Assembly: GCA_903873965.1 (NCBI GenBank)
Contig: CAIQQO010000005.1
Coordinates: 1-64,000, forward strand
Direction of reading: 5' to 3'
DNA from: an uncultured bacterium
Lineage (GTDB): Bacteria > Chloroflexota > Anaerolineae > J036 > Brachytrichaceae
Length of the DNA: 64,000 nt
Position 1 is the stretch's first letter. Each line of letters opens with the position of its first letter. The notes beneath the pieces were generated by a model that was not told the origin of the DNA, did no database searches, and was given only the letters and a program-made list of their open reading frames with translations. Shown here piece after piece: positions 6,198-63,360 of the stretch. The translations under genes were made by a program, and so were the position numbers.

Positions 6198-6217
6198 AGC
6201 GCTTGTCATACAAACCT

Positions 6218-43528: not shown

Positions 43529-43584
43529 TTGTCAGCCAAGTTGTCAGGAAATGTCAACTTTTCCGGCAACTTTTTCGCTAGAGT
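43529..43584 (+). promoter_or_regulatory. TGTCAG-repeat promoter 1 (cox-like operon)
   Basis: Half-sites TTGTCAG (43529), TTGTCAG (43541) and ATGTCAA (43551), then CTTTTCC and a further CGGCAAC (43564), followed by TAGAGT as -10 at 43579. Spacing is 12 and 10 bp between half-sites and exactly 28 bp from the last half-site to the -10. The same geometry is found at five other places in the window. It drives the coxG-like gene 22 bp later. Confidence 0.7.
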
Positions 43585-43605: not shown

Positions 43606-44064
43606 ATGAAAATATCCGGCACTTATTCAATTCAGGCTGAGCAACAAGCGGTCTACGATGTGTTCATGAATCCCGACGCCATTGCCAAAGCACTTCCTGG
43701 CGTAGATCGCCTTGTTCCTATCGAAGACCAACTCAATGCGTGGACCGTTACGGCCAAAATAGGCATCGCGGCTGTCAGCGGCATGTATACGGGCATCGTC
43801 CGCATGAGCGATCTCGCGTCGCCACACCATTTCCGCCTCACCGTTGATGGAGAGGGTCAGGGCAGCATCATCGGGGGGGATGTTCAGGTCGACTTATCGT
43901 ATGACGCAGGCGCGGGCAAAACCACCATTGTCTGGAATGCTGATGCCAATGTGTTTGGCCGCCTGGCTGGGGTGGGGCAGCGGTTGATCTCCGCTGCCGC
44001 CTCGATGCTGGCGCGGCAATTCTTCAGCAGCCTGAGCCGCCAGATACCAGGAGTGGATAACTAA
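43606..44064 (+). CDS. CoxG-like SRPBCC protein
   Basis: A 152-residue protein of the START/SRPBCC fold: MKISGTYSIQAEQQAVYDVFMNPDAIAKALPGVDRLVP is the typical CoxG N-terminus, with the helix-grip pocket closing in the C-terminal helix AASMLARQFFSSLSRQIP. CoxG proteins associate with the cox cluster and are proposed to help the Mo/Cu enzyme or anchor it to the membrane. Start at ATG 43606, about 15 bases after the predicted transcription start; no strong ribosome site. First gene of the operon, driven by the TGTCAG-repeat promoter. Confidence 0.85.
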   Translation: MKISGTYSIQAEQQAVYDVFMNPDAIAKALPGVDRLVPIEDQLNAWTVTAKIGIAAVSGMYTGIVRMSDLASPHHFRLTVDGEGQGSIIGGDVQVDLSYDAGAGKTTIVWNADANVFGRLAGVGQRLISAAASMLARQFFSSLSRQIPGVDN

Positions 44065-44207
44065 AGGAGGGAAATACAGAGGCTTTGAAGGTGAGTATGA
44101 CTGACTGGGCGCAATAAGTCGTTGCCCGGCTTCCGGGATTTTGGAAGCGCAGGGTGGACGACAAAGTCTTATATGGACCGTAAGGTCTAGGCCAAGGAGC
44201 AATAGGC

Positions 44208-44672
44208 GTGAAAGTGTCAATTACTGTTAATGGGAAACTGTATGTGAGGGATATTGAACCTCGAATGCTGCTTGTGAACTTCATTCGCGAGGAACTGGGT
44301 TTGACTGGAACGAATGTCGGGTGTGATACAAGCCAGTGTGGCGCGTGCACCGTGCACATGGATGGTCGCGCGATCAAATCGTGCACATGCTTTGCCGTTC
44401 AAGCCGACGGGCGTCAGGTCACCACCATCGAGGGCATGGCATCCGGCGACACCTTACATCCGATGCAGGAAGCTTTCTGGGAGAAGCATGGATTGCAGTG
44501 CGGTTTCTGCACTCCCGGGATGATTATGGCGACAACAGCCTACCTGAAGGATCATCCGAATCCCACAGAAGCTGAAATCCGGCACGCTCTTGATGGCAAT
44601 TTCTGCCGCTGTACTGGTTACCAGAATATTGTCGCTGCGGTGAAAACCGCTGCTGAGAAGGTAGGAGCGTAA
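44208..44672 (+). CDS. CoxS-like [2Fe-2S] small subunit of molybdenum hydroxylase
   Basis: A 154-residue subunit with GTG start after AAGGAG. The plant-type [2Fe-2S] motif is CDTSQCGAC with a fourth Cys nearby (KSCTC), and the second cluster uses CGFCTPGM and CRCTGY, the classic small-subunit pattern of xanthine oxidase family enzymes. It passes electrons from the molybdenum site to FAD. A small hairpin TGGACC-GTAA-GGTCTA sits 20 bp upstream of the start. Adjacent to the large subunit (2 bp). Confidence 0.95.
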
Positions 44673-44673
44673 A

Positions 44674-47043: not shown

Positions 47044-47888
47044 TGTGTCCTGCATCCTTTGACTATCATCGTCCGGCTTCGGTTGCCGAGGCCGTTCAAT
47101 TGTTGTCGCGCCCTGGCGCGAAGGCGCTCGCTGGTGGCCACAGCCTGATTCCGGCGATGAACCTGCGCGTGGCTCAACCAGGCGAACTCGTGGATATCGG
47201 GCGACTTGATGTGTTGCGCGGCATTCGTGTGGACGGTAATCGCCTGATTATTGGTGCACTCAGCACGCATGCCCAGATCGCCGCGTCGCCTGAGGTTCAG
47301 AAGCACTGTGCAGCGCTGGCCACGGCCTGCAGCACTGTCGGCGACCCGGCTGTGCGCAACTGGGGCACTATCGGCGGCAACCTTGCTCATGCTGATCCGG
47401 CCTCTGACCCGCCCACAGTCGTGCTGGCCTGCGATGCCGTGATCCACACTCAGGGTGAGAATGGTCAACGCGCCATCAAGGCCGCCGATTTCTTTGTCGA
47501 CGTCTTTACGGTTGATCTGCAACCCGGCGAGTTGATCACCAGCATCGAGATTCCCAGCCAGAGTCATCGGCGCATGGCATACGTCAAGCTGCCGCATCCG
47601 GCTTCCCGCTACGCCGTCGTTGGCGTATGCGTTTCGATGCACACGTCGGGCGGTGTGTGCGATCAAATAGCCATTGCGGTTGGCGGCGCAACAGCCAAGG
47701 CGACGCGCGCGACTGGTGCGCAAAGCGCCCTGCTGGGTTCGTTGCTTGAAGCGGAGGCACTGGAAGCAGCTGCGATAGCGATATCGGCTGATATCGGCGA
47801 TCAGGCTGTCAGTGATATCTATGCCAATGCCACCTACCGCCGCGCTATGGCAGGCGTTCTGCTCAAACGCGCGGTGAAGGCGCTATAG
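47043..47888 (+). CDS. CoxM-like FAD subunit
   Basis: A 281-residue FAD-binding subunit starting at ATG 47043 inside the coxL stop (TGATG). FAD-binding motifs are AGGHSLIPAM near residue 34 and TIGGNLAHADPASD near 108. It accepts electrons from CoxS. Fixed order S-L-M. The C-terminal helical domain ends near RAMAGVLLKRAVKAL. Confidence 0.93.
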   Translation: MCPASFDYHRPASVAEAVQLLSRPGAKALAGGHSLIPAMNLRVAQPGELVDIGRLDVLRGIRVDGNRLIIGALSTHAQIAASPEVQKHCAALATACSTVGDPAVRNWGTIGGNLAHADPASDPPTVVLACDAVIHTQGENGQRAIKAADFFVDVFTVDLQPGELITSIEIPSQSHRRMAYVKLPHPASRYAVVGVCVSMHTSGGVCDQIAIAVGGATAKATRATGAQSALLGSLLEAEALEAAAIAISADIGDQAVSDIYANATYRRAMAGVLLKRAVKAL

Positions 47889-47919
47889 ATTACGAAGGGC
47901 ACATACAGCGCAGGAACCA

Positions 47920-48885
47920 ATGCTAATGTCGAAAGCACTTGAAATGACAACGGTGGATGTTGTGCAGCAGCATCTGCATGAGCAGAACTATATCGCCGAA
48001 CGCAGTCTTGCCACAGCGATCTACCTCGCGTTGCGCATGGGTAAACCGCTGTTTCTTGAGGGCGAGGCCGGCGTTGGCAAAACGGAGGTGGCCAAGGTGC
48101 TCGCGCGCATCCTGGACACCCGCTTGATCCGGTTGCAATGTTACGAGGGACTGGATGCCAACCATGCGCTGTATGAATGGAACTATGCCCAGCAGTTGCT
48201 TTATCTGCGTATGATGGAAGTCGGAAGCGATTCCGATCGCCGAAAAGGTGGGCGCGCAGACGCGATTCCAATTGCAGACCTGCGAGCCGGTTTGTTCACG
48301 CGCGAATTCTTGCAGGCGCGCCCATTGCTCCAGGCGCTTGAAGCAGGGCAGAACGGTTCGCCGCCTGTCCTGCTCATCGATGAGCTGGATCGCGCCGATG
48401 AGGAGTTTGAGGCGTTGTTGCTGGAACTGCTGTCTGATTTCCAGATAACGATACCTGAACTTGGTACTATTCGTGCATCACAGCCGCCGGTGGTGATCAT
48501 CACCTCGAACCGGACGCGCGAGATTCACGATGCCCTGAAGCGGCGCTGCCTGTACTACTGGATTGAGTACCCGACTTTTCAGAAGGAGTTGAAGATAGTG
48601 CGCGCCAAAGCGCCGGACGTGGAACCAATGTTCGCGCGCCACATCACGGCCTTTATCCAGGAACTGCGCTCGATGGAGCTGTTCAAGCGCCCTGGCGTTG
48701 CTGAGACCATCGATTGGACGGCGGCGCTGGTGGCGCTCGATCAGCACGAACTAACGGTGGATGCGGTGCAGGAAACCGTCGGCGTGATTCTCAAGTATCA
48801 GGACGATATTGCGTCGCTGTCGGGCGGTTCACTCAAAACGGCGCTTGACCGCGCCCGAGTCCGCGCGGAATCCGCCGCGAGTTAA
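47920..48885 (+). CDS. CoxD-like MoxR-family AAA+ ATPase
   Basis: A 321-residue AAA+ protein. Walker A is GEAGVGKTEV near residue 47 and Walker B LLIDELDRADEE, with the sensor-1 region IITSNRTREIHDA. MoxR/CoxD proteins act as chaperones that insert sulfur and metal into the molybdenum site, working with a VWA partner. ATG 47920 and 47926 are both possible starts. The next gene encodes the VWA partner. Confidence 0.9.
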   Translation: MLMSKALEMTTVDVVQQHLHEQNYIAERSLATAIYLALRMGKPLFLEGEAGVGKTEVAKVLARILDTRLIRLQCYEGLDANHALYEWNYAQQLLYLRMMEVGSDSDRRKGGRADAIPIADLRAGLFTREFLQARPLLQALEAGQNGSPPVLLIDELDRADEEFEALLLELLSDFQITIPELGTIRASQPPVVIITSNRTREIHDALKRRCLYYWIEYPTFQKELKIVRAKAPDVEPMFARHITAFIQELRSMELFKRPGVAETIDWTAALVALDQHELTVDAVQETVGVILKYQDDIASLSGGSLKTALDRARVRAESAAS

Positions 48886-48888
48886 AAC

Positions 48889-50202
48889 ATGCCTGAACCA
48901 AGCCAGCCACTGAGGCGAAGCGATTCTGATCGCCGAAGCGCGTATCTCGCGCCCGACGCGCCTTATGAGGGTGGCTTTTTGCTGCCCAACCTGCTGCTTT
49001 TCGGGCGCGTCTGCAAAACGCTGGGTATGTCGGTGACTCCCAGCCAGATGATCGAAATCGCGCATGCGCTTGAGTACATCGATCTGGGCAGGCGCGAGGA
49101 TGTGTACCATGCGATTCGGGCGCTGACCGTGACGCACCCGAACGAGTTGCCTTTGTTTGACGAAGCCTTTCGCACTTTCTGGCGCAAACCCACCACGGAA
49201 TGGTCGACGCTCGATATGCAGTCGCTGGGCGAGCAGCGCCGCCAGAAGAAGACGCAGTTTCTGCCTCCGCCCGAAGCCAGTCCTGACAATGACGAGGGCG
49301 CTGCCGGTAACGCAGCGCCAATCGATCCGACACTGATTGCCATCGTCCCCACTTATAGCCAGAGCGAAGCCTTGCGCACGAAGGACTTTGCCGAGATGTC
49401 GGCGGATGAGGTTGCGCAGGCAAAAGGGATGATGTCCCGGTTGCATTGGGGTCTGGGCGTGCGCCGAACGCGTCGCATGGTTCCCGGCAAAGGAGCTGCC
49501 TTCGACCCGCGCGCCACGTTTCGCAATAACCTTCGTTATGCGGGCGAAACTCTGGAGCTGTCGACCCGCACGCGCAGCATCAAGCCCCGTCCCCTTGTTC
49601 TGCTGTGTGATATCAGCGGTAGCATGGAGCGCTATACGCGCCTGCTGCTGCATTTCATGTACACGCTGGCGAATGCCCAATCGTTCGAGATGGCGCCGAT
49701 ACGCCGCGTCGAATCGTTCGTGTTCAGCACCCGCCTGTCTCGCATCACGTTGCAGTTGCGCCACAAGTCCATTGATGTGACGATGAAGCATGTCGGCGCC
49801 GATGTCAAGGATTGGGGCAGTGGCACACGCATTGGCGATGCGCTGCACTTTTTTAATTACCATTGGGCGCGTCGGGTTTTGGGACACGGGGCTGTTGTGA
49901 TGATCATCACTGATGGCTGGGACCGCGGCGATCCGGAGTTGTTGCGCAATGAGGTGATTCGACTGCGTCGCAACGCGCATCGCCTGATCTGGTTGAATCC
50001 GTTGATCGGGTCGCTGAACTATGAGCCATTGACCCGTGGCGCCATGGCGATGCTCCCCTATGTGGATGATTTTCTGCCGGTGCGCAATCTGTCCAACCTC
50101 GCGATGCTGGCGCGAGAGCTGGCGCGGGTGGATTGGCGTCGTCCGGCCTTCGGGAAACCGGGAATGCAACAAGATGGGCGTCGCTCTACAATAGTGGCGT
50201 GA
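48889..50202 (+). CDS. CoxE-like VWA-domain protein
   Basis: A 437-residue protein. The VWA domain MIDAS motif is DISGSM near residue 243 with Thr/Asp ligands further on (IITDGWDRGD). It is the partner of the MoxR ATPase and is needed for maturation of the Mo enzyme. Directly follows it (3 bp). An antisense frame of 447 residues across this gene is a codon shadow. Confidence 0.9.
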   Translation: MPEPSQPLRRSDSDRRSAYLAPDAPYEGGFLLPNLLLFGRVCKTLGMSVTPSQMIEIAHALEYIDLGRREDVYHAIRALTVTHPNELPLFDEAFRTFWRKPTTEWSTLDMQSLGEQRRQKKTQFLPPPEASPDNDEGAAGNAAPIDPTLIAIVPTYSQSEALRTKDFAEMSADEVAQAKGMMSRLHWGLGVRRTRRMVPGKGAAFDPRATFRNNLRYAGETLELSTRTRSIKPRPLVLLCDISGSMERYTRLLLHFMYTLANAQSFEMAPIRRVESFVFSTRLSRITLQLRHKSIDVTMKHVGADVKDWGSGTRIGDALHFFNYHWARRVLGHGAVVMIITDGWDRGDPELLRNEVIRLRRNAHRLIWLNPLIGSLNYEPLTRGAMAMLPYVDDFLPVRNLSNLAMLARELARVDWRRPAFGKPGMQQDGRRSTIVA

Positions 50203-50273
50203 AACGTGAGAAGAGAAGCGTGAGGTGTGTGGCGTGAAATGTATTTGCGCGCACTAAAGGCAGCAGATGAGTT

Positions 50274-51356
50274 ATGCGTGACATCATGGACACCGTTGAG
50301 CAATGGTTACACGAAAGTAAGCCTGTCGCCCTGGCTACTGTCGCTGCCACATGGGGATCATCACCGCGTCAGGCAGGCGCGAAGATGGCCGTGACGCGGG
50401 AGCTGGCGATGGTCGGATCTGTCAGCGGCGGGTGCGTTGAAAGCGCGGTCGCCGAGGCTGCCGTCGAGATAATCGCGGATGGCAAACCGCGCTTACTCAC
50501 CTATGGTGTCAGCGATGATGCCGCATGGGAAGTCGGGCTGGCGTGTGGCGGTAAAGTGTCTGTCTACGTCGAACCGCTGGACCTGGCCTGGTGGCGGGCT
50601 GCAACCAGCGTCATTCGCAACCAGCATGCGCTGGTGACGGTAACCGTCATCGCGGGCGCGCATTCCGGCCAGAAGGTGATGTTTGATCTGCGCGAGAATA
50701 GCATTATCTATAGCAGCAGCACGCTTGAACCAGCGCAACAGGAGGCGCTGATTCAAGCGGTAAAGAGCCAACGCACAACGGGGCGCGCCGTGTTCAACGG
50801 GCTGGAGATTCTGGTCGATGTGGTTCGGCCTGATCCGCGCCTGGTCATCGTTGGCGGGGCGCATGTGTCGCAGGTGCTGGCGAAGTTCGCCTTGATGATG
50901 GGATATGGCGTCATCATCATCGATCCGCGCGCCGCTTTTGCGACGGCAGAGCGTTTCCCCGGCGTTAGCATGCTATCGCATGATTATCCAGACAAGGTGT
51001 TGCCCGGCCTTGCTATTGATTCTGAAACCTACATTGCTGTCTTGACGCACGATCCGAAGATCGACGATCCGGCATTGCGCGCAGCGTTGCCAAGCCCCGC
51101 GCCATATGTGGGCGTCATGAGCGGCAAGCGTTCGCATGAGTTGCGCATTGAGCGGTTGACTCAGGCGGGAGTCAGCGCTGCCTTAATCGGACGCATCCAT
51201 GTTCCGATTGGGTTATTCATAGGGGCGCGCCTGCCGGAAGAGGTGGCATTGAGTATCATGGCCGAAATCGTCGCGACGAAGAACACCTCTTCTTCTTCGC
51301 CCGATACGACATCAAAAATGAGCGCAGAGATGCCTAACCGCAAAGTGCAGACATGA
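50274..51356 (+). CDS. CoxF/XdhC-family Mo-enzyme maturation protein
   Basis: A 360-residue protein with the XdhC N-terminal CoxI-like domain (SSPRQAGAKMAVT and GSVSGGCVESAV near residues 25-60) and the C-terminal Rossmann fold (RLVIVGGAHVSQVLAKFA). XdhC proteins bind molybdenum cofactor and its sulfurated form and pass it to the apo-enzyme. It overlaps the next gene by 4 bp (ATGA). ATG 50274 and 50286 are possible starts. Confidence 0.88.
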   Translation: MRDIMDTVEQWLHESKPVALATVAATWGSSPRQAGAKMAVTRELAMVGSVSGGCVESAVAEAAVEIIADGKPRLLTYGVSDDAAWEVGLACGGKVSVYVEPLDLAWWRAATSVIRNQHALVTVTVIAGAHSGQKVMFDLRENSIIYSSSTLEPAQQEALIQAVKSQRTTGRAVFNGLEILVDVVRPDPRLVIVGGAHVSQVLAKFALMMGYGVIIIDPRAAFATAERFPGVSMLSHDYPDKVLPGLAIDSETYIAVLTHDPKIDDPALRAALPSPAPYVGVMSGKRSHELRIERLTQAGVSAALIGRIHVPIGLFIGARLPEEVALSIMAEIVATKNTSSSSPDTTSKMSAEMPNRKVQT

Positions 51357-52372
51357 AATACGGTCCCGTTCCATTGCGTGAGGCCGTTGGCACCATTCTG
51401 GCGCACCATGTGCTCGATCATGAAGGGCGCAGGATATTTACAAAAGGACGCCTGCTGTCCCCGTCCGACATCGAAACGCTGGCCGCATTGGGGCATACCG
51501 TCATCACTGCCGTGATGCTCGAGGCCAATGACCTTATTGAGAATGAAGCCGCGCGCCGTGTTGGTGAAGCGTTATGCGGCCCGGGAGTGAGTCTGCAGTC
51601 GCCGGGTGTGGGGCGCGCCAACCTGATCGCGCGTGTTGACGGCCCGTTGCGCGTGAACGTCGACGCGCTGAATCGGATCAATGCCATTGATGAGGGGATT
51701 ACGGTGGCTACGCTGCGCGAACACACACTGGTGCGCGCGCGGCAACTGGTGACGCTGGTGAAGGTGATTCCGTTTGCAGTGCCTTCAGCCGCGGTGGCCG
51801 ATGTGGAAGCGATCGCGCGCGACTATGGCCCGGCGCTGGTGGTGTCGGTGCGCCCTATGCGATCGTGTTCTGTTGCGCTCATTGTTTCGGCGCCCGATTG
51901 CGCGCTGGAGCGGTTGCTGGCGGATTTTACCCGACCGACGCAGGCGCGGCTGGAGAAATTGGGCAGCCGCCTTGATGTCATCGTTCACGTTCCCCATCAA
52001 CCGATTGACATTGCCGAAGCGATTCGCGCGCAGCATGCCGCCGGGCGCGATCTCTTGATCCTCGCAGGAATTTCTGCCACGATGGATCGGGATGATATCA
52101 TCCCGCAGGCAGTCCGCGCAGCCGGCGGTACCGTCTCCCAACTGGGTGTGCCGGTGGACCCTGGCAGCCTGCTCATGCTGGCCTGGTTGGATGCCATGCC
52201 CATCATTGGCGCGCCGGGCTGCATGAAATCATTGCAGATGAACGTAATTGATTTGATCCTGCCACGGCTGCTGGCGGGTGAACGCCTGAACCGGGCAGAC
52301 CTCGTCCTGATGGGTCACGGCGGCCTATTTGACGACACGCCAGACCGCCCGATGCCGCGGCGGGAAGAGTAA
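51353..52372 (+). CDS. Molybdopterin-binding (MoeA/MoaB-like) protein
   Basis: A 339-residue protein. The C-terminal two thirds has the molybdopterin-binding pattern GRDLLILAGISATMDRDDIIPQAV with a G-G turn, and GAPGCMKS near residue 282, similar to the MoCF/MogA domain; N-terminal PVPLREAVGTILAHHVL matches MoeA domain starts. It likely delivers or modifies molybdenum cofactor for the operon's hydroxylase. Last gene of the operon, ending at a hairpin terminator. Confidence 0.8.
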   Translation: MKYGPVPLREAVGTILAHHVLDHEGRRIFTKGRLLSPSDIETLAALGHTVITAVMLEANDLIENEAARRVGEALCGPGVSLQSPGVGRANLIARVDGPLRVNVDALNRINAIDEGITVATLREHTLVRARQLVTLVKVIPFAVPSAAVADVEAIARDYGPALVVSVRPMRSCSVALIVSAPDCALERLLADFTRPTQARLEKLGSRLDVIVHVPHQPIDIAEAIRAQHAAGRDLLILAGISATMDRDDIIPQAVRAAGGTVSQLGVPVDPGSLLMLAWLDAMPIIGAPGCMKSLQMNVIDLILPRLLAGERLNRADLVLMGHGGLFDDTPDRPMPRREE

Positions 52373-53982: not shown

Positions 53983-54038
53983 TTGTCAGCCCAACTGTCA
54001 GGAAATGGCAACTTTTCACCAAAGAGCGTTTGTATAGT
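53983..54038 (+). promoter_or_regulatory. TGTCAG-repeat promoter 2 (SnoaL-like gene)
   Basis: TTGTCAG (53983), CTGTCAG (53995), ATGGCAA (54005), CTTTTC, then TATAGT at 54033 preceded by TG (extended -10). Half-site spacing 12 and 10 bp; last half-site to -10 is 28 bp. Drives the gene at 54088. Confidence 0.7.
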
Positions 54039-54087
54039 GAATGTGTGGTTGAACCTAAGCCGAGAACTCATCAAGTGGAGAGAACCA

Positions 54088-54501
54088 ATGTCAATCGAAG
54101 AGAATAAAGTCATTGCGCGCCAGTGCTTCCTTGAACTCAATAAGTTGTTTGACAAACCAGGCAGTCCAGATACTGCAGACCTGAATTCGATCATGTCGCC
54201 AAAGTGGGCAAAAGAAATCAATAGCTGGTTTCCCGGACTTCGGCAATTATGGCCGGATCATCACATTGACGTCACCGATATGGTTGCGGAGGGTAATTGT
54301 GTGTGGTGCAGGCTGGCCACTAATGCCACGCACATGGGTGAATGGGAGGGCATCCCGGGTAACGGCAAGCACTGGACTAATACTGGTATCTGGTATCTCA
54401 CCATCGTCGACAGGAAGATCGTCGATATCGAAACGCTGTTCGACTCGTTGCCGATTGTCAAGCAACTTGGTGGAACAATTACACCGCCAGCGCCTCAGTG
54501 A
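54088..54501 (+). CDS. SnoaL-like polyketide-cyclase-fold protein
   Basis: A 137-residue alpha+beta cone protein, with ATG 54088 after GGAGAGA. MSIEENKVIARQCFLELNKLF is the first helix of the SnoaL/NTF2 ester-cyclase fold, and the strand-rich part GIWYLTIVDRKIVDIETLFD is typical. SnoaL-like proteins cyclise polyketides or act as small binding domains; here no polyketide genes are near, so binding is as likely. Its 3' end overlaps that of the convergent regulator by 23 bp. It is driven by a TGTCAG-repeat promoter. Confidence 0.72.
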   Translation: MSIEENKVIARQCFLELNKLFDKPGSPDTADLNSIMSPKWAKEINSWFPGLRQLWPDHHIDVTDMVAEGNCVWCRLATNATHMGEWEGIPGNGKHWTNTGIWYLTIVDRKIVDIETLFDSLPIVKQLGGTITPPAPQ

Positions 54502-56923
54502 TCGCCTGGTTCAGTGAAAGCTTTTGTCCCTCCGCCCAGGCGGTTTCGAAATCAGCCGTGGGTAGGGCATCTCGCAGCATGGGCACGCGTTGCTCGTATT
54601 CGGCAAACAGTTCGAGTTCGAATATCCCCTGGGTGTGATGGTCGCGCCGGATCGTCGATGCGGCGCCCAGCAGGCGCACGGCGTGCAGCGGTTGATCTTG
54701 CAAGTGCGCCAGTCCGGCCGCCGATGCCAGTCCTTGGGCGACGCGTTCCAGGCTGTCCATCCGGTGGTGTAAAGGGATATGTTCCTTGAGTGACTGTTTG
54801 ACCAGTGCGACATCTTTCATCTGTAAACCAACTTCGGCCAGGTCGGCGAGTAGCATGCCGAGTGTTTTTGGCATCCCGCGCTGTTGCGCGAGTAGCATAC
54901 CTTCCTCTATCATCAGGCGCGCCAGTGCCGGTTCACCGCGGAGCATCGTGATGTGACTCATATACACGAGCGAAACAGCCACAATGCCCGGATCATGGGT
55001 TTCACGGGCAAGCTGGATACTCTCGGTTTGCGCAGTTAATGCCTCATCCGTGTTGCCCATCATGTACAGGCGGGTGCTAAACTGACTCAGCGCCCATGAC
55101 ACGCGATCCTTGTGCCCGATTTTGCGCGCCAACTGGAGGACGCTTGTCAATAAAATCACGGCCAGCGTGTTATCTGGTGATAGAAAACCGAGGTACTGAT
55201 CAGCCTCCATGATCAAGTCTTCAGCATTCAATTGATGCGCCAGTGCCGATGCCGCGCGATAGTTTTCCAGTCCACTCACAGCATCGCCCTTGTCATAGTT
55301 CACCCTGCCCATCATGGTGAGAACACTGCAACGCGTGGCAGTGGCTGTTGATGGATTCGACAGAACGATCGTTTCCATCCAGTGCGTTAACTCGTTGCCA
55401 TGGCCGAGGGTGGTCCAGACACCAAGGGCACCCGAGATCAACTGCCATCCTAGCTGCCATGCGCCGATGTGCGCTGCCCAACCCAGCGCAGCGCGTGTGT
55501 TGTCCAGTTCAGCCGCCACAACGGCGCTCCAGATCCAGAGCCACATGCCACTTTCGAATCTCATCAGCCCGGCTTGCGCAAGATCGGCATAATACGCCAG
55601 GTGGCGATCCCGAATCACGTTAAGGTGCGTGGCATCTGCGCTGCTGTGGGTCGCGACATCAACGGCGTATTGTCGAATGGTCTCCAGTAATCGATAGCGC
55701 GTCTTGCCGGTTGTATCATCTATTGTGGCGATTACCAGCGACTTGTTCACCAGTTGGTCGAGGTACTCGATTGCGCCTGCGCCATGAATGGCTTCGGCTG
55801 CATCCAGCGTCCAGCCGCCCGCGAATACTGAAAGATCGCGCAGTAACGTGCGCTCTTCTTCGGGCAACAGGTGATAGCTCCACTCGATCGCAGCGCGCAG
55901 CGTCTGATGGCGCGGTAATGCCGTGCGGCTGCCGCCTGTGAGCAGGCGGAAGATGTCGTCCATGCGCGCCGCAAGGTCTTCTACTGAGAAGGCGCGTATG
56001 CGCGCTGCGGCCAGTTCGATCGCCAGCGGTATCTCGTCAAGCCGCCGGCAGATATGTGCCACCCAGTCGCTATTCGCTGGGGTAACAACGAAGCTGGAAT
56101 TGACCGCACTCGCGCGCTCGGCAAACAGTTGCATGGCCTTATCCATCTCCAGTGGGGGCACGCGCCAGGTGACTTCGCCGGGGATGTTCAGCGCTTCGCG
56201 ACTGGTTGTCAGCACTTGCAGCCGTGGGCAAGCCTGCAGCAGTTCGGAGGCGAGTCTGGCGCATGCGTCGATCACATGTTCGCAATTGTCCAGGATGAGC
56301 AATGTCTGACGCTCCTGCAAATACTCGGTGAGGACGGTCAGCGCAGAACGGCTCATGGTTTGCAAGCCGAATAGGGATGCGACTGTGTTGGTCAGCGGTT
56401 CGGAGTCTGTGAGGGACGCGAGATCGACGAACCAAACGCCATCGCGGCGTTTTCCCAGTGAGTTGCGGCCGACCTCAATCGCCAGCCGGGTTTTGCCTAC
56501 ACCGCCGGAGCCAGTCAATGTCACAAGCCGGTGTGTATGGAAGAGGTCCATCACCTCGGCCACTTCGTGCTCGCGACCGATGAAGCGCGTGAGTTGCACG
56601 GGTAAATTGTGTTGTGTAGTGGCATCATGCAATGGAAACGAGTCGGAAGTGAGGGTTACAGCAGCGCTTGCTATTCTTGCCAGGGCAACGAATTCTCTGG
56701 CGCTATCGGAATCGAGCTTAAGCCCCAGTGCTTCTATAAATTTGGCTTCGACTATGTCGGGATCAGGCGACCGCTGCCCGTTTTCCAGGCGCGTGATCTG
56801 CGACTCGGAGTAACCTACAGCGATGCCCAACTCGCGCTGTGTTAATCGCGCGCGGCGCCGCAAATGCTTCAACATCTCGCCAAAGGTCTTGATCGAATCT
56901 CTTGCCTGGTCCGTCCTGCCCAT
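54479..56923 (-). CDS. XRE-HTH / NB-ARC ATPase / TPR regulator 1
   Basis: An 814-residue regulator starting at ATG 56923 (a TTG at 56932 is less likely; the second regulator starts at the equivalent ATG). Residues about 10-65 are an XRE-type HTH (LTQRELGIAVGYSESQITRLENGQR). Residues about 95-380 are an NB-ARC signalling ATPase: TRFIGREHEV, Walker A GSGGVGKTRLA near 140, Walker B LLILDNCEH. The rest is TPR-like helices. Such proteins switch on an ATP-bound state after sensing a ligand. The 3' end overlaps the SnoaL-like gene, and its promoter region is shared with TGTCAG-repeat promoter 3. Confidence 0.88.
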   Translation of the reverse strand: MGRTDQARDSIKTFGEMLKHLRRRARLTQRELGIAVGYSESQITRLENGQRSPDPDIVEAKFIEALGLKLDSDSAREFVALARIASAAVTLTSDSFPLHDATTQHNLPVQLTRFIGREHEVAEVMDLFHTHRLVTLTGSGGVGKTRLAIEVGRNSLGKRRDGVWFVDLASLTDSEPLTNTVASLFGLQTMSRSALTVLTEYLQERQTLLILDNCEHVIDACARLASELLQACPRLQVLTTSREALNIPGEVTWRVPPLEMDKAMQLFAERASAVNSSFVVTPANSDWVAHICRRLDEIPLAIELAAARIRAFSVEDLAARMDDIFRLLTGGSRTALPRHQTLRAAIEWSYHLLPEEERTLLRDLSVFAGGWTLDAAEAIHGAGAIEYLDQLVNKSLVIATIDDTTGKTRYRLLETIRQYAVDVATHSSADATHLNVIRDRHLAYYADLAQAGLMRFESGMWLWIWSAVVAAELDNTRAALGWAAHIGAWQLGWQLISGALGVWTTLGHGNELTHWMETIVLSNPSTATATRCSVLTMMGRVNYDKGDAVSGLENYRAASALAHQLNAEDLIMEADQYLGFLSPDNTLAVILLTSVLQLARKIGHKDRVSWALSQFSTRLYMMGNTDEALTAQTESIQLARETHDPGIVAVSLVYMSHITMLRGEPALARLMIEEGMLLAQQRGMPKTLGMLLADLAEVGLQMKDVALVKQSLKEHIPLHHRMDSLERVAQGLASAAGLAHLQDQPLHAVRLLGAASTIRRDHHTQGIFELELFAEYEQRVPMLRDALPTADFETAWAEGQKLSLNQAITEALAV

Positions 56924-56985
56924 TGCGTTCAATCTCCCACCTGAAAATCAGATTCTACTCTTGTATAGCGGATAGTGCAGTTATT

Positions 56986-57041
56986 TTGTCAGCCCAACTG
57001 TCAGGAAATGGCAACTTTTCTGATTGAGTGAGTAGTAGCAT
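56986..57041 (+). promoter_or_regulatory. TGTCAG-repeat promoter 3 (divergent from regulator 1)
   Basis: TTGTCAG (56986), CTGTCAG (56998), ATGGCAA (57008), CTTTTC, and TAGCAT at 57036. Half-site spacing 12 and 10 bp; 28 bp to the -10. It lies in the divergent spacer 63 bp from the regulator start, so it may control both directions. Confidence 0.65.
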
Positions 57042-57136
57042 CATATTCACTCGCTCACAATCGCATAGTGAACATGGGTGAAGCCGTGCTATTACTGAGA
57101 CAGTCGTCTATATATGAGTTCCGGAGGATAACAAAA

Positions 57137-57475
57137 ATGGCAAAGGTCTATGAAATCGCGCATATCGTGCTAAAGGAAGGCGTCAAAGGTGAGGATTTCG
57201 AGAAATTCTGGCTGCAGGAGTATGGGCCGCAGGGGGCGTTAATTGACTGGACATCCCATCTGGTGAAGGCCGATCGAGGCGAGAGGGCAGGCCAGTATAT
57301 GGTGATGTGGGAGATGCCCAGCGTCGAGTTGCGGGATCGCCTATTAACACCACCGCATGAGTTCACCGACGAGATGTGGCGCCGGCTGGGACCGAACATC
57401 CATATCCTGGGCGAAAAATTCGATCAGTATGTGGCAGATTATCAGTGGACTCATTTTATCGAACTGGGAGGCTAA
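57137..57475 (+). CDS. Small dimeric-barrel-like protein, paralogue 1
   Basis: A 112-residue protein starting at ATG 57137 after GGAGG. It shares with the proteins at 60233 and 62419 the phrases VKGEDFEKF, KADRGERAGQY and MWEMPSVELR. Length and strand/helix pattern suggest a ferredoxin-like dimeric alpha/beta-barrel of the NIPSNAP/EthD/antibiotic-monooxygenase group, which is inference. Its active site, if any, is unknown. Convergent with regulator 2. Confidence 0.7.
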   Translation: MAKVYEIAHIVLKEGVKGEDFEKFWLQEYGPQGALIDWTSHLVKADRGERAGQYMVMWEMPSVELRDRLLTPPHEFTDEMWRRLGPNIHILGEKFDQYVADYQWTHFIELGG

Positions 57476-57561
57476 AACCAATTCGCGACACGACTCGTGT
57501 GATTCAACCGGCAACCCTGAAGGGAGCAACACCGTATTCTGTCCAAAGTCTGGCGCGACGA

Positions 57562-60063
57562 TCACGCCGTCAGTGCCAGGGCGATGGCTTGATGCAACGA
57601 TAGCGCCTGCCCTTCCGCCCAGGCGGTTTCGAAATCCGCTTGGGCGAGGACAGCGCGCAACGCCGGCAAGCGTCGGTTATATTCGGCAGACATGTCGGAT
57701 TCAAATATCCCGTGGGTATGGTGCTCGCGCCGGATGGCAGAGGCAGCGCCAAGCAGGCGCACGGCTGGCGCGAGTTGGCCGCGCAACTGGGCCAGACCGG
57801 CAGCTGCTGTCAGCCCCCGCGCGACACGTCCAAGGTCGTCAATTTGATGATAGTAAGGGATGATCTCAGGCAGCAGGCGCTTTACCAGTGCACCATCCCC
57901 TTGGCCTAGTCCAACCTCTGCCAGGTTTTCCAAGTCATACCCCAGCCAGCCGCGCAGGCCTTCTTGACGATTGAGAAGAATGCTTTCCTCGAGTACCGCG
58001 CGCGCCTCGGGGTAGTTTCCCTGTTCCAGAAGCAGTCGCCCCATGGGGCCAAGTGCGCCCGCAATTGCGCAGGAGTTTCCGGTTTTGCGCGCCAACCTCA
58101 CGCTCTCGGTCAGCGCTGAGTGGGCTCGATTCAGGTTGCCCTGCAGGCGCAAACGTGCGCCGAGCATGGATAACGCCAGTGATTCGCGGCTCTTTCGTTC
58201 GGTCTGGTGCGCCAATGCGATGACGGCATTCAACAAGCGGATGGAGATGTCATCATCCAGTGTCAAGAATCCAAGGTACTGGTCCGCCTCAAGGATCAGT
58301 TCCTCGTCTTCAATGCGATGCGCCAGCTCGGATGCGGCGCGATAGCGGGCAATACTTTCAGGCACGTCGCCTTTTGTGTAGCACAGCCGCCCGATTACGG
58401 TCAAACTATGACCGCGCTGAATGTCACTCACCTTGGGGTTGGAGAGGACATTCGCGTCACTCCATCGTATCAACTCATCCCCGTAACCCAGCACTGTCCA
58501 GACGCCCAGAATGCCCGTGGTTAACTGCCATCCCAGTTGCCAGTCACCGCTTTGCGCCGCCCAGGCCAGGGCAGCGCGCGTGTTATCAAGCTCAGCCGCC
58601 AGGGACGCATTCCAGACCCAGTGCCATGTTTCATCCAAGATATTGAGCCGCCCAGACTGTGCAAAATCGGCAAAGAATTTCAGGTGGCGTTGCCGGATCG
58701 CGTATAGGCGCGCTTTTGCAGCGTCCGTAGACGTAGCCGCCTCGCTGGCGTACTGGCGGATCACCTCCAGCAACCGATAGCGCATCGTACCGGTGGCTTC
58801 ATCGATCGCCGCAATGACCAGTGATTTGTTCACCAGTTGGTCGAGTTGCTCCAGAACACCGTCGCCGAGAACAGCTTCGGCAGTTTCCAGCGTCCAGCCG
58901 CCCGCAAAAACCGATAATCCGTGCAGCAGGGCGCGTTCATGCTCGGGCAACAAGTCGTAGCTCCACTTGATGGTGGCGCGCAGGGTTTGTTGACGCGGCA
59001 AGGCTGTGCGGCTGCCACCCGTGAGCAGGCGAAAAACGTCATCCATGCGCTCGGCGAGTTCCTCTACAGAGAAAGTGCGCATGCGCGCGGCGGCCAGTTC
59101 AATAGCCAATGGCATGTAATCCAGCCGCTGACAGATGTGGGCGATCCAGCGGCGGTTTGTGGTGGTTACGGCAAAGGATGGTTTGACGGCGCAGGCGCGT
59201 TCGACGAACAACTGTACTGCTATGTCCATCGCGAGCGGGGGGACGCGCCATGCGACTTCGCCGGGGATATTGAGGGCTTCACGGCTGGTGGCCAGCACAT
59301 GCAGGTGTGGACAGGCTTGCAGTAGAGCGGTAACCAAGTTGGCACAGGCATTGATCAGATGCTCGCAGTTGTCGAGAATGAGCAGGACGTGGCGATCGAG
59401 CAGATGCTCGGTGAGTGCGGTCAAAGCCGGTCGGCTCATGGTGGGTAAACCAAACACAGCGGCGATGGTATTAGGCAGTGGGACGGGATCGTTGAGGGGA
59501 GCCAGTTCAACCAGCCAGACGCCATCGTGGTATAGATTGAGCAGGTTGGAGCCAACTTCGATGGCCATGCGGGTTTTGCCAACGCCGCCGGAGCCGGTCA
59601 GCGTCACGAGGCGGCATGCTTGAATGTAAGCAGCGACTTCGCCCACTTCGTGCTCGCGGCCGATGAAGTGTGTCAATTGGGCGGGCAGATTGGTGTGCCC
59701 GTGAGGGTATGGCGGCTGGGCGGGCGCCTCTTGGTCGATACCCGGGTGCGCCATCTCGCTACTCGCTGGGGCAGGCGCATGGCTGGCGCCAGCAGGGAGA
59801 GATGCGTTGGCAACGGCGGCTTTGGCGAGGGTGATCAACTGAATGGCGGTATCGTGGTCGAGTTGCAGCGCATCGATAAACTGAGCCTCGACTGTAACGG
59901 GATCGGGAAGGCGTTGGCCGCTCTCGAGGCGCGTGATCTGCGACTCGGAGTACCCTACGGCCATGCTCAGCTCGCGTTGGGTTAATTGCGCGCGCCGACG
60001 CAAATGCTTCAGCATTTCGCCAAAAGTGGTGATCGAATCTTTCGCTTGTCCAGTCCTGCCCAT
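57562..60063 (-). CDS. XRE-HTH / NB-ARC ATPase / TPR regulator 2
   Basis: An 833-residue paralogue of regulator 1 (near-identical N-terminus: LTQRELSMAVGYSESQITRLESGQR). XRE-HTH about 10-65, a linker with Pro-rich segments, NB-ARC with THFIGREHEV and GSGGVGKTRMA, Walker B LLILDNCEH, and TPR-like C-terminal helices. The two regulators are interleaved with their small-protein genes and have the same orientation, consistent with a tandem duplication. Its start is 63 bp from TGTCAG-repeat promoter 4. Confidence 0.88.
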   Translation of the reverse strand: MGRTGQAKDSITTFGEMLKHLRRRAQLTQRELSMAVGYSESQITRLESGQRLPDPVTVEAQFIDALQLDHDTAIQLITLAKAAVANASLPAGASHAPAPASSEMAHPGIDQEAPAQPPYPHGHTNLPAQLTHFIGREHEVGEVAAYIQACRLVTLTGSGGVGKTRMAIEVGSNLLNLYHDGVWLVELAPLNDPVPLPNTIAAVFGLPTMSRPALTALTEHLLDRHVLLILDNCEHLINACANLVTALLQACPHLHVLATSREALNIPGEVAWRVPPLAMDIAVQLFVERACAVKPSFAVTTTNRRWIAHICQRLDYMPLAIELAAARMRTFSVEELAERMDDVFRLLTGGSRTALPRQQTLRATIKWSYDLLPEHERALLHGLSVFAGGWTLETAEAVLGDGVLEQLDQLVNKSLVIAAIDEATGTMRYRLLEVIRQYASEAATSTDAAKARLYAIRQRHLKFFADFAQSGRLNILDETWHWVWNASLAAELDNTRAALAWAAQSGDWQLGWQLTTGILGVWTVLGYGDELIRWSDANVLSNPKVSDIQRGHSLTVIGRLCYTKGDVPESIARYRAASELAHRIEDEELILEADQYLGFLTLDDDISIRLLNAVIALAHQTERKSRESLALSMLGARLRLQGNLNRAHSALTESVRLARKTGNSCAIAGALGPMGRLLLEQGNYPEARAVLEESILLNRQEGLRGWLGYDLENLAEVGLGQGDGALVKRLLPEIIPYYHQIDDLGRVARGLTAAAGLAQLRGQLAPAVRLLGAASAIRREHHTHGIFESDMSAEYNRRLPALRAVLAQADFETAWAEGQALSLHQAIALALTA

Positions 60064-60125
60064 ACCTTATACGCTCCCGCCCTGAACCGGATTTTACTCC
60101 GGTATTAGCGTCTTTGTGTCTGTAA

Positions 60126-60181
60126 CTGTCAGCCCAGTTGTCAGGAAATGTCAACTTTTCCGACGTAGCGATCTATATGAT
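60126..60181 (+). promoter_or_regulatory. TGTCAG-repeat promoter 4 (divergent from regulator 2)
   Basis: CTGTCAG (60126), TTGTCAG (60138), ATGTCAA (60148), CTTTTCC, then TATGAT at 60176, exactly 28 bp after the last half-site. Half-site spacing 12 and 10 bp. Drives 60233-61703 and is divergent from regulator 2. Confidence 0.72.
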
Positions 60182-60182
60182 G

Positions 60183-60205
60183 AACACAGGATTTCAATCC
60201 GTGTT
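60183..60205 (+). promoter_or_regulatory. Leader hairpin with T-rich tail, possible attenuator
   Basis: AACAC-A-GGAT / ATCC-GTGTT pairs (one bulged A) close a TTCA loop, starting 2 bp after the -10 region, and are followed by TATTTTG. A further TTGTCAG half-site lies at 60210-60216, between the hairpin and the ribosome site. Confidence 0.4.
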
Positions 60206-60232
60206 TATTTTGTCAGCAAAGGAGAGTCGATC

Positions 60233-60568
60233 ATGGCAAAGGTATTTGGTTTCGCACCGCTGGAACTCCGCCCCGGAGTCAATGGTGAAGACTTCGAGAA
60301 ATTCTTTAATAACGAATATGCGCCCTTCGGCCAAAAACTGGGTTGGAAAGGGTATGTACTTAAGGCTGATCGTGGAGAGAGGATTGGCAAATATGCCGTC
60401 ATCTGGGAGTTGCCCAGTATTGAATTGCGCAACCGACAGCTTCCGGCTCCTGATCAGATTTCCGAGGAAGTATTGCAACTGCTGGGCCCTGAGTTTGATG
60501 AGGCCAATAAGAAACTGGATACACTCGTCGTCGGCTGGCCCTCCACTGACTACGTTGAGATGGTCTGA
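60233..60568 (+). CDS. Small dimeric-barrel-like protein, paralogue 2
   Basis: A 111-residue protein starting at ATG 60233 after AAAGGAGAG. VNGEDFEKFFNNEYAPFGQKLGW, KADRGERIGKYAVIWELPS and the C-terminal GWPSTDYVEMV match the barrel domain of the HD-GYP fusion at 62419 and, less closely, the protein at 57137. Fold inference as for paralogue 1. Co-transcribed with the Gfo/Idh/MocA gene 28 bp downstream. Confidence 0.72.
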   Translation: MAKVFGFAPLELRPGVNGEDFEKFFNNEYAPFGQKLGWKGYVLKADRGERIGKYAVIWELPSIELRNRQLPAPDQISEEVLQLLGPEFDEANKKLDTLVVGWPSTDYVEMV

Positions 60569-60596
60569 TACCCCTCTGGATGGAACAAGGAGCGTT

Positions 60597-61703
60597 ATGC
60601 AAGACAAAGTCCGCGTCGGAATGATTGGAACGAGTTGGTACTCGGATAATATCCACCTGAATCTGCTAAAAAGCCATCCCGGGGCAGTCACTGCCGCCAT
60701 CTGTGGACGCAACCGCGCGCGCGCCGAAGAGATGGCGCAGAAGTATTCGATTCCCAACGTGTACACGGACTACAGCGACATGATTCAGCACGGGAATCTC
60801 GACGCGATTGTCGTGGCCGTACCAGATGATATGCATTATCCGATGACCATGGCTGCACTGGATGCCGGCCTGCACGTGTTATGCGAAAAACCACTGGCGT
60901 TTAACCTGGTGCAGGCAAAGGAGATGTTGGCAAAGGCCGAATCCGCAGGGGTCAAGCATATGACGTGTTTTACCTATCGCTGGATGCCCCAGTTCCGATA
61001 TATGCAGCGGTTGGTGGCAGAAGGTTATATCGGCAAGGTCTATAACACCAGTTTCAACTATATCGCCGACTATGCTCGTCACACCACCTATCAGTGGAAG
61101 TGGGATCGGCAGCATGGTCTAGGCGCGCTAGGCGACCTCGGATCGCACATGATCGATATGGCGACGTGGATCGTGGGAGATATCACCCGGGTGCAAGCCA
61201 CTTTGAACGTCCGGGCGAACAAGCCGCACCCGGAGGGCAAGCCGTACGAGTTATCTAATGACGTTGCCAACCTTTCACTACAATTTGCAAACGGCGCTGT
61301 GGGAAGCATCTACGCGACGGCGGTAGCGAACATTGGGGACCGTGGACAAGCGCAGCAGATTGTCCTGCATGGCGAAAAAGGCACGCTGGAACTGGAGAGT
61401 GACTTGGCCACTTATACGGTGCGCGGGCTTCACGACGACGAAAAGGCGTTGCACGCCTTGCCGATTCCGGAAGACGTACTGCAAGGCGTCGACCAGAGTA
61501 CATCCACTTGGGATCAACTCTTCAAGATTTTCACCGAGCAGCCAGCCAGCACGCGGCTGTTTATCGACTCAATCCTCACTGACAAATCCATCACCCCCAG
61601 CTTTTACGATGGCGTGAAAACGCAGGCCGTGATTGAAGCGGTCTTCGAGTCCGACCGAACTGGCTGTTGGGTGGACGTCGAGCAGTTGGCGAACGCGAAA
61701 TGA
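60597..61703 (+). CDS. Gfo/Idh/MocA-family oxidoreductase
   Basis: A 368-residue NAD(P)-dependent dehydrogenase starting at ATG 60597 after AAGGAG. The Rossmann fold begins VRVGMIGTSWYSDNI and the conserved EKPLAF carries the catalytic Lys; GALGDLGSHMIDMATWI is the usual signature of the C-terminal domain. It oxidises or reduces a sugar, inositol or similar alcohol; the substrate is not known. It belongs to the small-protein transcript and is the only clear metabolic enzyme in this region. Confidence 0.9.
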   Translation: MQDKVRVGMIGTSWYSDNIHLNLLKSHPGAVTAAICGRNRARAEEMAQKYSIPNVYTDYSDMIQHGNLDAIVVAVPDDMHYPMTMAALDAGLHVLCEKPLAFNLVQAKEMLAKAESAGVKHMTCFTYRWMPQFRYMQRLVAEGYIGKVYNTSFNYIADYARHTTYQWKWDRQHGLGALGDLGSHMIDMATWIVGDITRVQATLNVRANKPHPEGKPYELSNDVANLSLQFANGAVGSIYATAVANIGDRGQAQQIVLHGEKGTLELESDLATYTVRGLHDDEKALHALPIPEDVLQGVDQSTSTWDQLFKIFTEQPASTRLFIDSILTDKSITPSFYDGVKTQAVIEAVFESDRTGCWVDVEQLANAK

Positions 61704-61733
61704 AGAAACCATAAGCCTTGCCGGTGCGCATGC

Positions 61734-61799
61734 AGACCTTTGAGGTGAAGGTTTGTAGGCGACGATGCTTGCAAGTCCACACCCGAAAGGTCTACAACC
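61734..61799 (+). repeat. Overlapping inverted repeats in spacer
   Basis: AGACCTTT (61734) pairs with AAAGGTCT (61786) and GGTTTGTAG (61750) with CTACAACC (61792); the two right arms overlap by 2 bases, so the structures exclude each other or form a knot. They lie 30 to 96 bp after the Gfo/Idh/MocA stop, before promoter 5. Confidence 0.4.
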
Positions 61800-61814
61800 C
61801 CAGACCCTTTAAAA

Positions 61815-61870
61815 CTGTCAACCCAACTGTCAGGAAAAGTCAGCTTTTCCGTCAATCAGGCTTGTATGAT
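61815..61870 (+). promoter_or_regulatory. TGTCAG-repeat promoter 5
   Basis: CTGTCAA (61815), CTGTCAG (61827), AAGTCAG (61837), CTTTTCC and TATGAT at 61865. Half-site spacing 12 and 10 bp; 28 bp to the -10. Drives the gene at 61907. Confidence 0.7.
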
Positions 61871-61906
61871 CACCTTGAACTCATTTCTAAATTCTGGAGG
61901 ACTATT

Positions 61907-62197
61907 ATGATCGTAAATCGACGAACGTTTATTCTTAGGCAGGGACGGCGGCAAAGCGCAATTGAAGCCATCAAGGCTACTTACGCCAGGGATCCAAGCA
62001 CTGTGAAACTGCGCTGGTACACATCCGATATCGGGCCATTTGACCAACTGGTCATGGAAATGGAATTTCAGGACCTGGCGGAGTACAACAAGTACTGGAC
62101 CGCATTCGATCCGGGCGAGGACTTCTGGAAGGGGTGGTTCGACCTGACCGCTACAGGCGGCACGAACGAGATCTGGGAGGTGGTTTACCAGAATTAA
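61907..62197 (+). CDS. Small NIPSNAP-like protein
   Basis: A 96-residue protein starting at ATG 61907 after GGAGG. The pattern MIVNRRTFILRQGRRQSAIE, PFDQLVMEMEFQDLAEYNKYW suggests a single NIPSNAP-type ferredoxin-like fold; it is not a close copy of the three barrel paralogues. No catalytic residues known. It stands alone between TGTCAG promoters 5 and 6. Confidence 0.65.
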   Translation: MIVNRRTFILRQGRRQSAIEAIKATYARDPSTVKLRWYTSDIGPFDQLVMEMEFQDLAEYNKYWTAFDPGEDFWKGWFDLTATGGTNEIWEVVYQN

Positions 62198-62317
62198 AAC
62201 CGGCGGATGTGTGGCTGCCTCAAAAGACGCATACCCGATGCGATATAGCGTGTCGATGTCTTCAGGCGTGAGCATGGATGGACCGTGTCCTATTCCGGAA
62301 GCACTTGTCATGATTTC

Positions 62318-62381
62318 CTGTCAGAATTGTCAGAATTTTGACACTAAATGTCACCTTTTCCCCGACAGGAATTTGTATGAT
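62318..62381 (+). promoter_or_regulatory. TGTCAG-repeat promoter 6 (HD-GYP fusion)
   Basis: CTGTCAG (62318), TTGTCAG (62327), a degenerate TTGACAC (62338), ATGTCAC (62348), CTTTTCC, then TATGAT at 62376. Spacing of 9, 11 and 10 bp, and 28 bp from the last half-site to the -10. More divergent than the others. Confidence 0.65.
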
Positions 62382-62418
62382 GGTTTCAGATGACCGTAAG
62401 GAAATAAAGAAGCCCATC

Positions 62419-63360
62419 ATGACTAATATATTTGGTTACACCCCGTTAGAACTCCGCCCTGGCATTCTGTGTGAAGATTTCGAGGAATTCGTCACTGCTG
62501 AATACGAATCCTTTGGACGTAAACTGGGTTGGAATGCGTATGTGGTTAAAGCAGATCACAGTGCAACGCCATGTAAGTACGCCGTCATCTGGGAAATTCC
62601 CAGCGCCGAATCTCAGCATCGGTATGTGACTTCAGCGGGTAAATTGACGGATGAAGCAAAACAACTACTGGGTCCGGAGTTTGACCTGGCCAGCCAGAAA
62701 CTGGTCAAGTTGACTACGGGCTGGCCGTTTATCGACTACATCGAAATTGTGGATCATGCAGCGCTGGCGATGGGTTCAGGTAACGCGCCACATGTGGCGC
62801 ACATCCACGAACCCATGATCGAAGCATGGTCGAAGGCGTGGGTATTGCGCGACAAGGAAACCATGGAGCACACGCAACGCGTTATCGACATCACCGTGAA
62901 GCTGGCGCGCGCGATGGGGGTCGATGAAACCATGATTGTGAATGTGCGCCGTGGCGCCATGTTGCACGATATTGGAAAGATGAATATTCCTGATGAGATT
63001 ATGCATAAGCCAGGTTCGCTGACTGAGACGGAGTGGCTTGTCATGCGCCAGCACCCGGTGTCGGCGTACAACATCCTCGCGCCGATTCCTTTCCTGAACA
63101 GCGCGCTTGATATTCCGTATTGCCATCACGAACGCTGGGATGGCAAAGGCTATCCGCGTGGGTTGAAGGGAGAGCAGATCCCCTTTACGGCGCGCCTCTT
63201 TTCCATCGTCGATGTATGGGATGCCCTGCAGTCCGACCGTCCCTATCGCTCCGCGTGGGCGATGCCGGAAATCGTCGCATACCTGCGCCAGAACTCTGGC
63301 ACTCAGTTTGACCCGCAAGTGGTGGACTGCTTCCTCACTCTGATTGCTGAAATCGCGTAG
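62419..63360 (+). CDS. Fusion of small barrel domain and HD-GYP domain
   Basis: A 313-residue protein. Residues 1-112 are a third copy of the small barrel domain (GYTPLELRPGILCEDFEEF, KADHSATPCKYAVIWEIPS). From about residue 145 it is an HD-GYP domain: MLHDIGKMNIPDEI near 180, HHERWDGKGYPRG near 238 and DVWDALQSDRPYR near 266. HD-GYP domains hydrolyse cyclic di-GMP or related molecules with a metal pair. The barrel would then be its sensor or partner-binding part, which is inference. It links the whole regulon to a second messenger. Confidence 0.88.
   Translation: MTNIFGYTPLELRPGILCEDFEEFVTAEYESFGRKLGWNAYVVKADHSATPCKYAVIWEIPSAESQHRYVTSAGKLTDEAKQLLGPEFDLASQKLVKLTTGWPFIDYIEIVDHAALAMGSGNAPHVAHIHEPMIEAWSKAWVLRDKETMEHTQRVIDITVKLARAMGVDETMIVNVRRGAMLHDIGKMNIPDEIMHKPGSLTETEWLVMRQHPVSAYNILAPIPFLNSALDIPYCHHERWDGKGYPRGLKGEQIPFTARLFSIVDVWDALQSDRPYRSAWAMPEIVAYLRQNSGTQFDPQVVDCFLTLIAEIA

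Follow-up and report, generated by a model that had tools for sequence, protein, structure and literature searches.

The 64,000-nucleotide stretch analysed here (the window; positions 1 to 64,000 of contig CAIQQO010000005.1, assembly GCA_903873965.1, from an uncultured Anaerolineae bacterium of the family Brachytrichaceae) carries two regulators of the STAND type, R1 and R2, which alternate with genes for small SnoaL-like and barrel proteins and are followed by a gene in which this barrel is fused with an HD-GYP domain. What holds such different genes together? A sequence-only reading had proposed a signalling module linking ligand-binding barrels, ATP-switched regulators and cyclic di-GMP. 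The domains, boxes, promoter geometry, co-localisation and conservation that can be read from the DNA suggest not a closed signalling module but an activator regulon that had not been described before: the XRE-STAND regulators are likely activators that read TGNCA repeats, and the barrels, the SnoaL protein, an oxidoreductase, a cox-type operon and the HD-GYP fusion are their putative targets. The genes of the region, with HTH standing for helix-turn-helix, are:

54088–54501, + strand: SnoaL-like protein (NTF2 fold), 137 amino acids, PF07366 (E 3e-15)
54479–56923, − strand: R1, XRE-HTH/NB-ARC/TPR (STAND) regulator, from open reading frame, Pfam and domain identities
57137–57475, + strand: barrel 1, 112 amino acids, NIPSNAP-like fold by homology to barrel 2
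57562–60063, − strand: R2, XRE-HTH/NB-ARC/TPR (STAND) regulator, from open reading frame, Pfam and domain identities
60233–60568, + strand: barrel 2, 111 amino acids, AlphaFold pLDDT 88.5, top PDB match the NIPSNAP-like 5kak (TM 0.66)
60597–61703, + strand: Gfo/Idh/MocA-family oxidoreductase, following barrel 2
61907–62197, + strand: NIPSNAP-like protein, 96 amino acids, PF07978 (E 4e-4, slightly below the cut-off)
62419–63360, + strand: barrel–HD-GYP fusion, 313 amino acids, with metal and GYP motifs

The alternation described by the sequence-only reading is present in the gene order, with both regulators on the minus strand, each converging on one small gene and diverging from the next; the 3′ ends of the SnoaL gene and R1 overlap, sharing 23 nucleotides. 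The genes listed in that reading are real, but it left out the oxidoreductase, which is probably co-transcribed with barrel 2, and the NIPSNAP-like gene, which has a box of its own.

A tandem-repeat box with fixed promoter geometry

Before each small gene lies a 33-bp box made of three TGNCA direct repeats with a period of 10–12 bp, TGTCAGCCCAACTGTCAGGAAATGGCAACTTTT or a near variant of it. The TGTCAG promoters reported earlier were found here far above chance, with nine exact boxes and two carrying 2–3 mismatches genome-wide, against zero for the reversed-pattern control. Including a four-repeat variant before the fusion, the window genome (G000) has a total of 12 boxes, of which the window holds the following:

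43530–43584, + strand: box (43530–43562) and −10 TAGAGT (43579–43584), heading the cox-type operon
53984–54038, + strand: box and −10 TATAGT for the SnoaL gene
56987–57041, + strand: box and −10 TAGCAT for barrel 1, in the R1 divergent region
60127–60181, + strand: box and −10 TATGAT for barrel 2, in the R2 divergent region
61816–61870, + strand: box and −10 TATGAT for the NIPSNAP-like gene
62319–62381, + strand: variant array of four TGNCA repeats (62319, 62328, 62339, 62349) and −10 TATGAT (62376–62381), before the fusion

The exact box at 43530, which heads the cox-type operon, lies before the range of the sequence-only reading.

In the alignment, all 12 boxes of the window genome are followed by TANNN(T/C) exactly 16 nucleotides past CTTTT. 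Among the 41 sites collected from all genomes, TANNNT occurs at this offset in 24, and the remaining offsets from 8 to 25 sum to 4. Judging from the spacing, with this hexamer set at −12 the repeats would begin near −61, −49 and −39, and the −35 region would read AACTTT, a poor match to TTGACA. The position of the candidate sites, at about −61 to −34, together with the weak −35, favours activation over repression. The specificity lies only in the array: used as a genome-wide probe, a lone TGNCA-22-TANNNT unit gave 450 matches versus 410 for the reversed control.

The box accompanies XRE-NB-ARC genes across genomes

In order to see where the box occurs, we surveyed 396 genomes of the class, 28 of them from the family of the window. 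The box is present in 14 of the 396 genomes, all belonging to this family, and the control gave none. Of these 14, 12 lie outside the genus and have one box each, which in 11 cases is no more than about 250 nucleotides from where an XRE-NB-ARC gene starts; in the twelfth (G020) it still precedes the same 71-amino-acid gene that, in genera g6 and g7, is conserved, preceded by the box and divergent from the regulator. The 71-amino-acid protein (MFTYLDATYAKLRYEEML...), box-driven in two genera, belongs to no known Pfam family (L101–L105, L111, L131, L132, L134, L140).

The repeats can also be traced from the regulators themselves. At least two TGNCA repeats 9–12 bp apart are found upstream of 21 of 35 XRE-NB-ARC genes, and at least three upstream of 9, when dinucleotide shuffles predict 0.7 and 0.0, respectively. 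On the divergent strand the distance from TGNCA to TANNNT peaks at 27 (9 of 38 genes) and 37 nucleotides (10 of 38), with 0–2 genes at other distances, whereas the non-divergent strand of the same 38 genes shows no such peak. The 27-nucleotide geometry is kept by three genes of other families (G053, G418 and G500), the first divergent from an SRPBCC-like gene and the second from a SnoaL-like gene (families named from sequence). The conserved unit is the regulator with its operator, and not the regulator with a barrel.

It could be argued that the box is read by some other DNA-binding protein, or by an ECF41-like ECF sigma factor, and that the XRE-NB-ARC genes are mere targets or bystanders. 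ECF41 promoters have the form TGTCACA-n16-CGTC (PMC3426412), and the likeness extends to the TGTCA element and the adjoining small redox-type target genes (PMC3426412); SnoaL-type extensions are known in these sigma factors, and a box in the regulator's own intergenic region could make the regulator a target. However, the −10 resembles TATAAT instead of CGTC, and it points at the small gene, away from the regulator. ECF41 uses a sigma factor and a single −35 element with no tandem repeats, whereas here the repeats are tandem and an NB-ARC activator is predicted; an ECF41-type promoter was ruled out by the TANNNT −10 and the repeats. In addition, single-box genomes have their box at an XRE-NB-ARC regulator, and operator variants track the HTH of the neighbouring regulator: the repeat flavour differs among paralogues with different HTH domains (TGTCAG, TGTCAA, TGACAC, TGGCAA), and HTH distance correlates with operator distance (Mantel r 0.64, p 1.5e-4, n = 12 regulators from two genomes). 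We consider a different reader of the box to be quite improbable.

Several observations weigh against the regulators being activators at these boxes. The boxes could also serve repression, and common ancestry can contribute to the correlation between HTH and operator. No anchored site was found for 14 of the 38 XRE-NB-ARC genes, and several such genes of the same genus (G007–G009) have no box. The start or the −10 is doubtful at the TPR gene of C115, at C56:8356 and at a GYD remnant in C485 of the sister genome (G010), and the contig comes from a 5.19-Mb genome that is 75% complete and divided into 497 contigs.

Eighty loci of the genome collection were also screened for an XRE-type regulator; most matches were NB-ARC only, without XRE, and were not used in the operator tests. 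At L051 and L062, two XRE-NB-ARC paralogues carry near-identical arrays of TGTCAA repeats (AACCAGTCAACTTTTC) and are divergent from similar secreted repeat proteins, which suggests a second sub-regulon.

Architecture and proposed mechanism of R1 and R2

Described as near-identical by the sequence-only reading, R1 and R2 are only 61% identical over their full length, with 77% identity in the HTH, 68% in the NOD and 53% in the sensor. Their N-terminal DNA-binding domain is of the XRE type (Pfam HTH_31), and the start of R1 is more likely the ATG at 56923 than the TTG at 56932. The NB-ARC score is 35.2 bits for R1 and 17.2 bits for R2 (cut-off 23.5), and TPR_2/TPR_12 are above the cut-off in R2, weaker and below it in R1. 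The NOD motifs GSGGVGKTR, LLILDNCEH and PLAIELAA (Walker A/B and GxP-type) are conserved across 14 aligned regulators, and the window genome has about 14 XRE-NB-ARC-TPR genes, full or partial.

By analogy with the STAND family, nucleotide-dependent multimerisation of R1 and R2 would be expected. MalT is similar in its STAND core, its TPR-like sensor and its action as a multimerising activator. The HTH of MalT is C-terminal and of the LuxR type, whereas in R1 and R2 it is N-terminal and XRE-type, and the MalT model scores far below its cut-off on these regulators. The large SARPs of Streptomyces such as AfsR (SARP-NB-ARC-TPR) are similar in their operators, tandem direct repeats with a period of about 11 bp that cover a poor −35 (PMC10936776, PMC10972967); for AfsR itself, the bound sites are 11-bp direct repeats across the −35 (PMC10936776). 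In contrast, R1 and R2 have HTH_31 and no BTAD/SARP domain detectable by Pfam, the NCBIfam AfsR model matches only the middle of R2 with a score far below the cut-off, and the sites are TGNCA repeats, usually three, at about −61 to −34, whereas AfsR/SARP sites are centred at −29.5. The predicted system would work like SARP/AfsR and MalT but belongs to neither, as it lacks both BTAD and a LuxR HTH.

TPR-sensor STAND proteins such as MalT and PH0952 switch by ADP/ATP (PMC6468293), and it is because of these proteins and AfsR (PMC10936776) that an ADP/ATP switch, multimerisation and side-by-side binding are proposed for R1 and R2. A signal would meet the TPR sensor, NB-ARC would exchange ADP for ATP, and the regulator would self-assemble; the HTH domains of the assembly would then lie side by side on the tandem TGNCA repeats, just upstream of and over the poor −35, from where they would bring RNA polymerase to the −10 that follows at a fixed distance. 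Binding of the box by R1 and R2, activation, the ATP switch and a metabolic role are what we infer. Given their common operator type and diverged sensors, R1 and R2 probably feed two signals into one regulon.

In the open-access literature we found no described operator or regulon for XRE-NB-ARC-TPR regulators. These proteins are numerous in the Chloroflexota, and a motif with fixed geometry makes their regulons readable from sequence; it also allows a bacterial STAND activator whose DNA-binding domain is of another type to be tested directly in vitro.

The cox-type operon and other predicted targets

A complete cox-type gene set with its box lies about ten kb ahead of the region of the sequence-only reading:

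43606–52372, + strand: coxG (PF06240), coxS, coxL (form II, AYRGAGR), coxM, coxD-like ATPase (MoxR-like), coxE (PF05762), xdhC and a molybdopterin-domain gene, co-directional, putative operon

CoxL has the motif AYRGAGR and scores 777.5 bits on the CO dehydrogenase form-I model TIGR02416, versus a cut-off of 991, which indicates a form-II type enzyme and rules out an aerobic form-I CO dehydrogenase. The box places this cox-type molybdenum hydroxylase under a testable candidate regulator.

Other boxes of the window genome precede a second SnoaL gene (C233), a SnoaL gene followed by that of an ABM-like protein (C382), two homologous secreted proteins (C56 and C228) and a TPR gene (C115). One of the C56 boxes has no clear gene, and both adjoin a third regulator, R3. 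Beyond the immediate neighbours, the predicted targets fit one theme, with SnoaL, ABM/NIPSNAP/GYD, CoxG and luciferase-like monooxygenase proteins, and from these families the regulon looks like one for the oxidation or turnover of an organic compound, either catabolic or detoxifying.

A family of secreted proteins of about 170 amino acids, with an NGTDNFYNPDNPxVVxSGKF motif and no Pfam family, has the box or a variant upstream at L045 (8723–9259) and L049 (326–1617).

Barrel proteins and the HD-GYP fusion

The SnoaL protein scores 56.6 bits on PF07366 (cut-off 28.4). The barrel domain is present in three copies in the window, the other two being 44 and 53% identical to barrel 2, whose structure is predicted as a ferredoxin-like alpha-beta fold. 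The Foldseek match of this model to 5kak has an E-value of 4e-5, and its structural neighbours also include 1vqs, LsrG, SnoaB and olivetolic acid cyclase. The fold is thus predicted to be that of NIPSNAP/ABM dimeric alpha-beta barrels, but the window barrels fall below every Pfam and NCBIfam cut-off, PF07978 included, and a PDB sequence search with the barrel gave no credible match. The protein at 61907–62197 scores 21.0 bits on PF07978, versus a cut-off of 22.3.

The last gene is, as had been read from the sequence, the same barrel joined to HD-GYP (HD_5, 131 bits). Like HD-GYP c-di-GMP (cyclic di-GMP) phosphodiesterases it has HDIGK, HHERWDGKGYP and a downstream D, but its N-terminus is a NIPSNAP-fold barrel instead of REC, PAS or GAF. 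When the fusion was folded without an alignment, the model was poor beyond the barrel core (pLDDT 44). Since the window genome has about 26 GGDEF domains, c-di-GMP is likely made, and with complete HD-GYP motifs an effect on c-di-GMP is a plausible output of the regulon.

Do the barrels then act as ligand-binding partners of the TPR sensors, forming one c-di-GMP-linked module with the fusion? The complete motif and the GGDEF domains are compatible with this, and MalT is held by partner proteins such as MalY (PMC10427625). By its own test, the sequence-only reading would fail if barrels never lay beside NB-ARC genes in other genomes, but they do recur in G010: one barrel has a box of its own and converges with an R4-type regulator, and another is found a few kb from the R2 orthologue. 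What speaks against the module is that the barrel is rare and its place beside the regulator can be taken by other proteins (SnoaL, SRPBCC or the 71-amino-acid protein), that a barrel homologue also occurs without an adjoining regulator, that the fusion was found only in the window genome among those searched, and that a common promoter suffices to explain the clustering. We regard the module as unlikely, and the HD-GYP fusion reads as one more promoter target. There is likewise only a slim chance that the small SnoaL/NIPSNAP-fold proteins present ligands to the regulators, each regulator switching on its own sensor cargo from the TGNCA promoter, with interchangeable cargo setting specificity and the fusion relaying the ligand signal to c-di-GMP.

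In the genome collection, barrel homologues amount to five copies across the two sister genomes and one distant copy. The latter (L250 8664–9071, G537) has no NB-ARC gene nearby, adjoins an alpha/beta hydrolase and has two TGACA repeats upstream. With this distribution, the barrel was rejected as a defining partner of the regulator.

Comparison with the sister genome G010

In G010, boxes are found ahead of SnoaL genes, of both barrels and of the genes for a NIPSNAP-size protein, a luciferase-like monooxygenase and a large secreted protein; others stand before the GYD-domain remnant, a coxD/coxE fragment and a truncated NIPSNAP-like copy. The orthologous site, adjoining the same 6-phosphogluconate dehydrogenase, has a single regulator, 75% identical to R2, flanked on both sides by SnoaL, whereas the window has SnoaL and a barrel there. 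Between the two genomes the cargo varies while the regulator and box persist. Upstream of barrel 2 the two sequences are unrelated before the box and near-identical from the box into the gene, as expected of a functional promoter.

The same boundary bears on another possibility, that the box is a mobile or recombination-prone repeat which was carried along as small genes were duplicated and matters little for regulation. In favour of this, the box accompanies paralogous SnoaL and barrel copies, and cox fragments meet at boxes in G010. However, the stretch conserved between the genomes begins with the box and continues into the gene, the other flank being unrelated, variants that differ in sequence keep the geometry, and genes as unrelated as coxG, the HD-GYP fusion and the 71-amino-acid gene keep the fixed −10 spacing. 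A mobile repeat is accordingly a very unlikely account of the box.

Rearranged cox, Gfo/Idh and SnoaL fragments are found at L127 (G010:C302, 744–4600), L125 and L095, and copies of the box lie at the joints or close to them; the boxes may be recombination points, or the pattern may reflect misassembled contigs. At L126 (G010:C205), a box at 6159–6213 is followed by a 63-amino-acid truncated copy of the NIPSNAP-like gene of the window.
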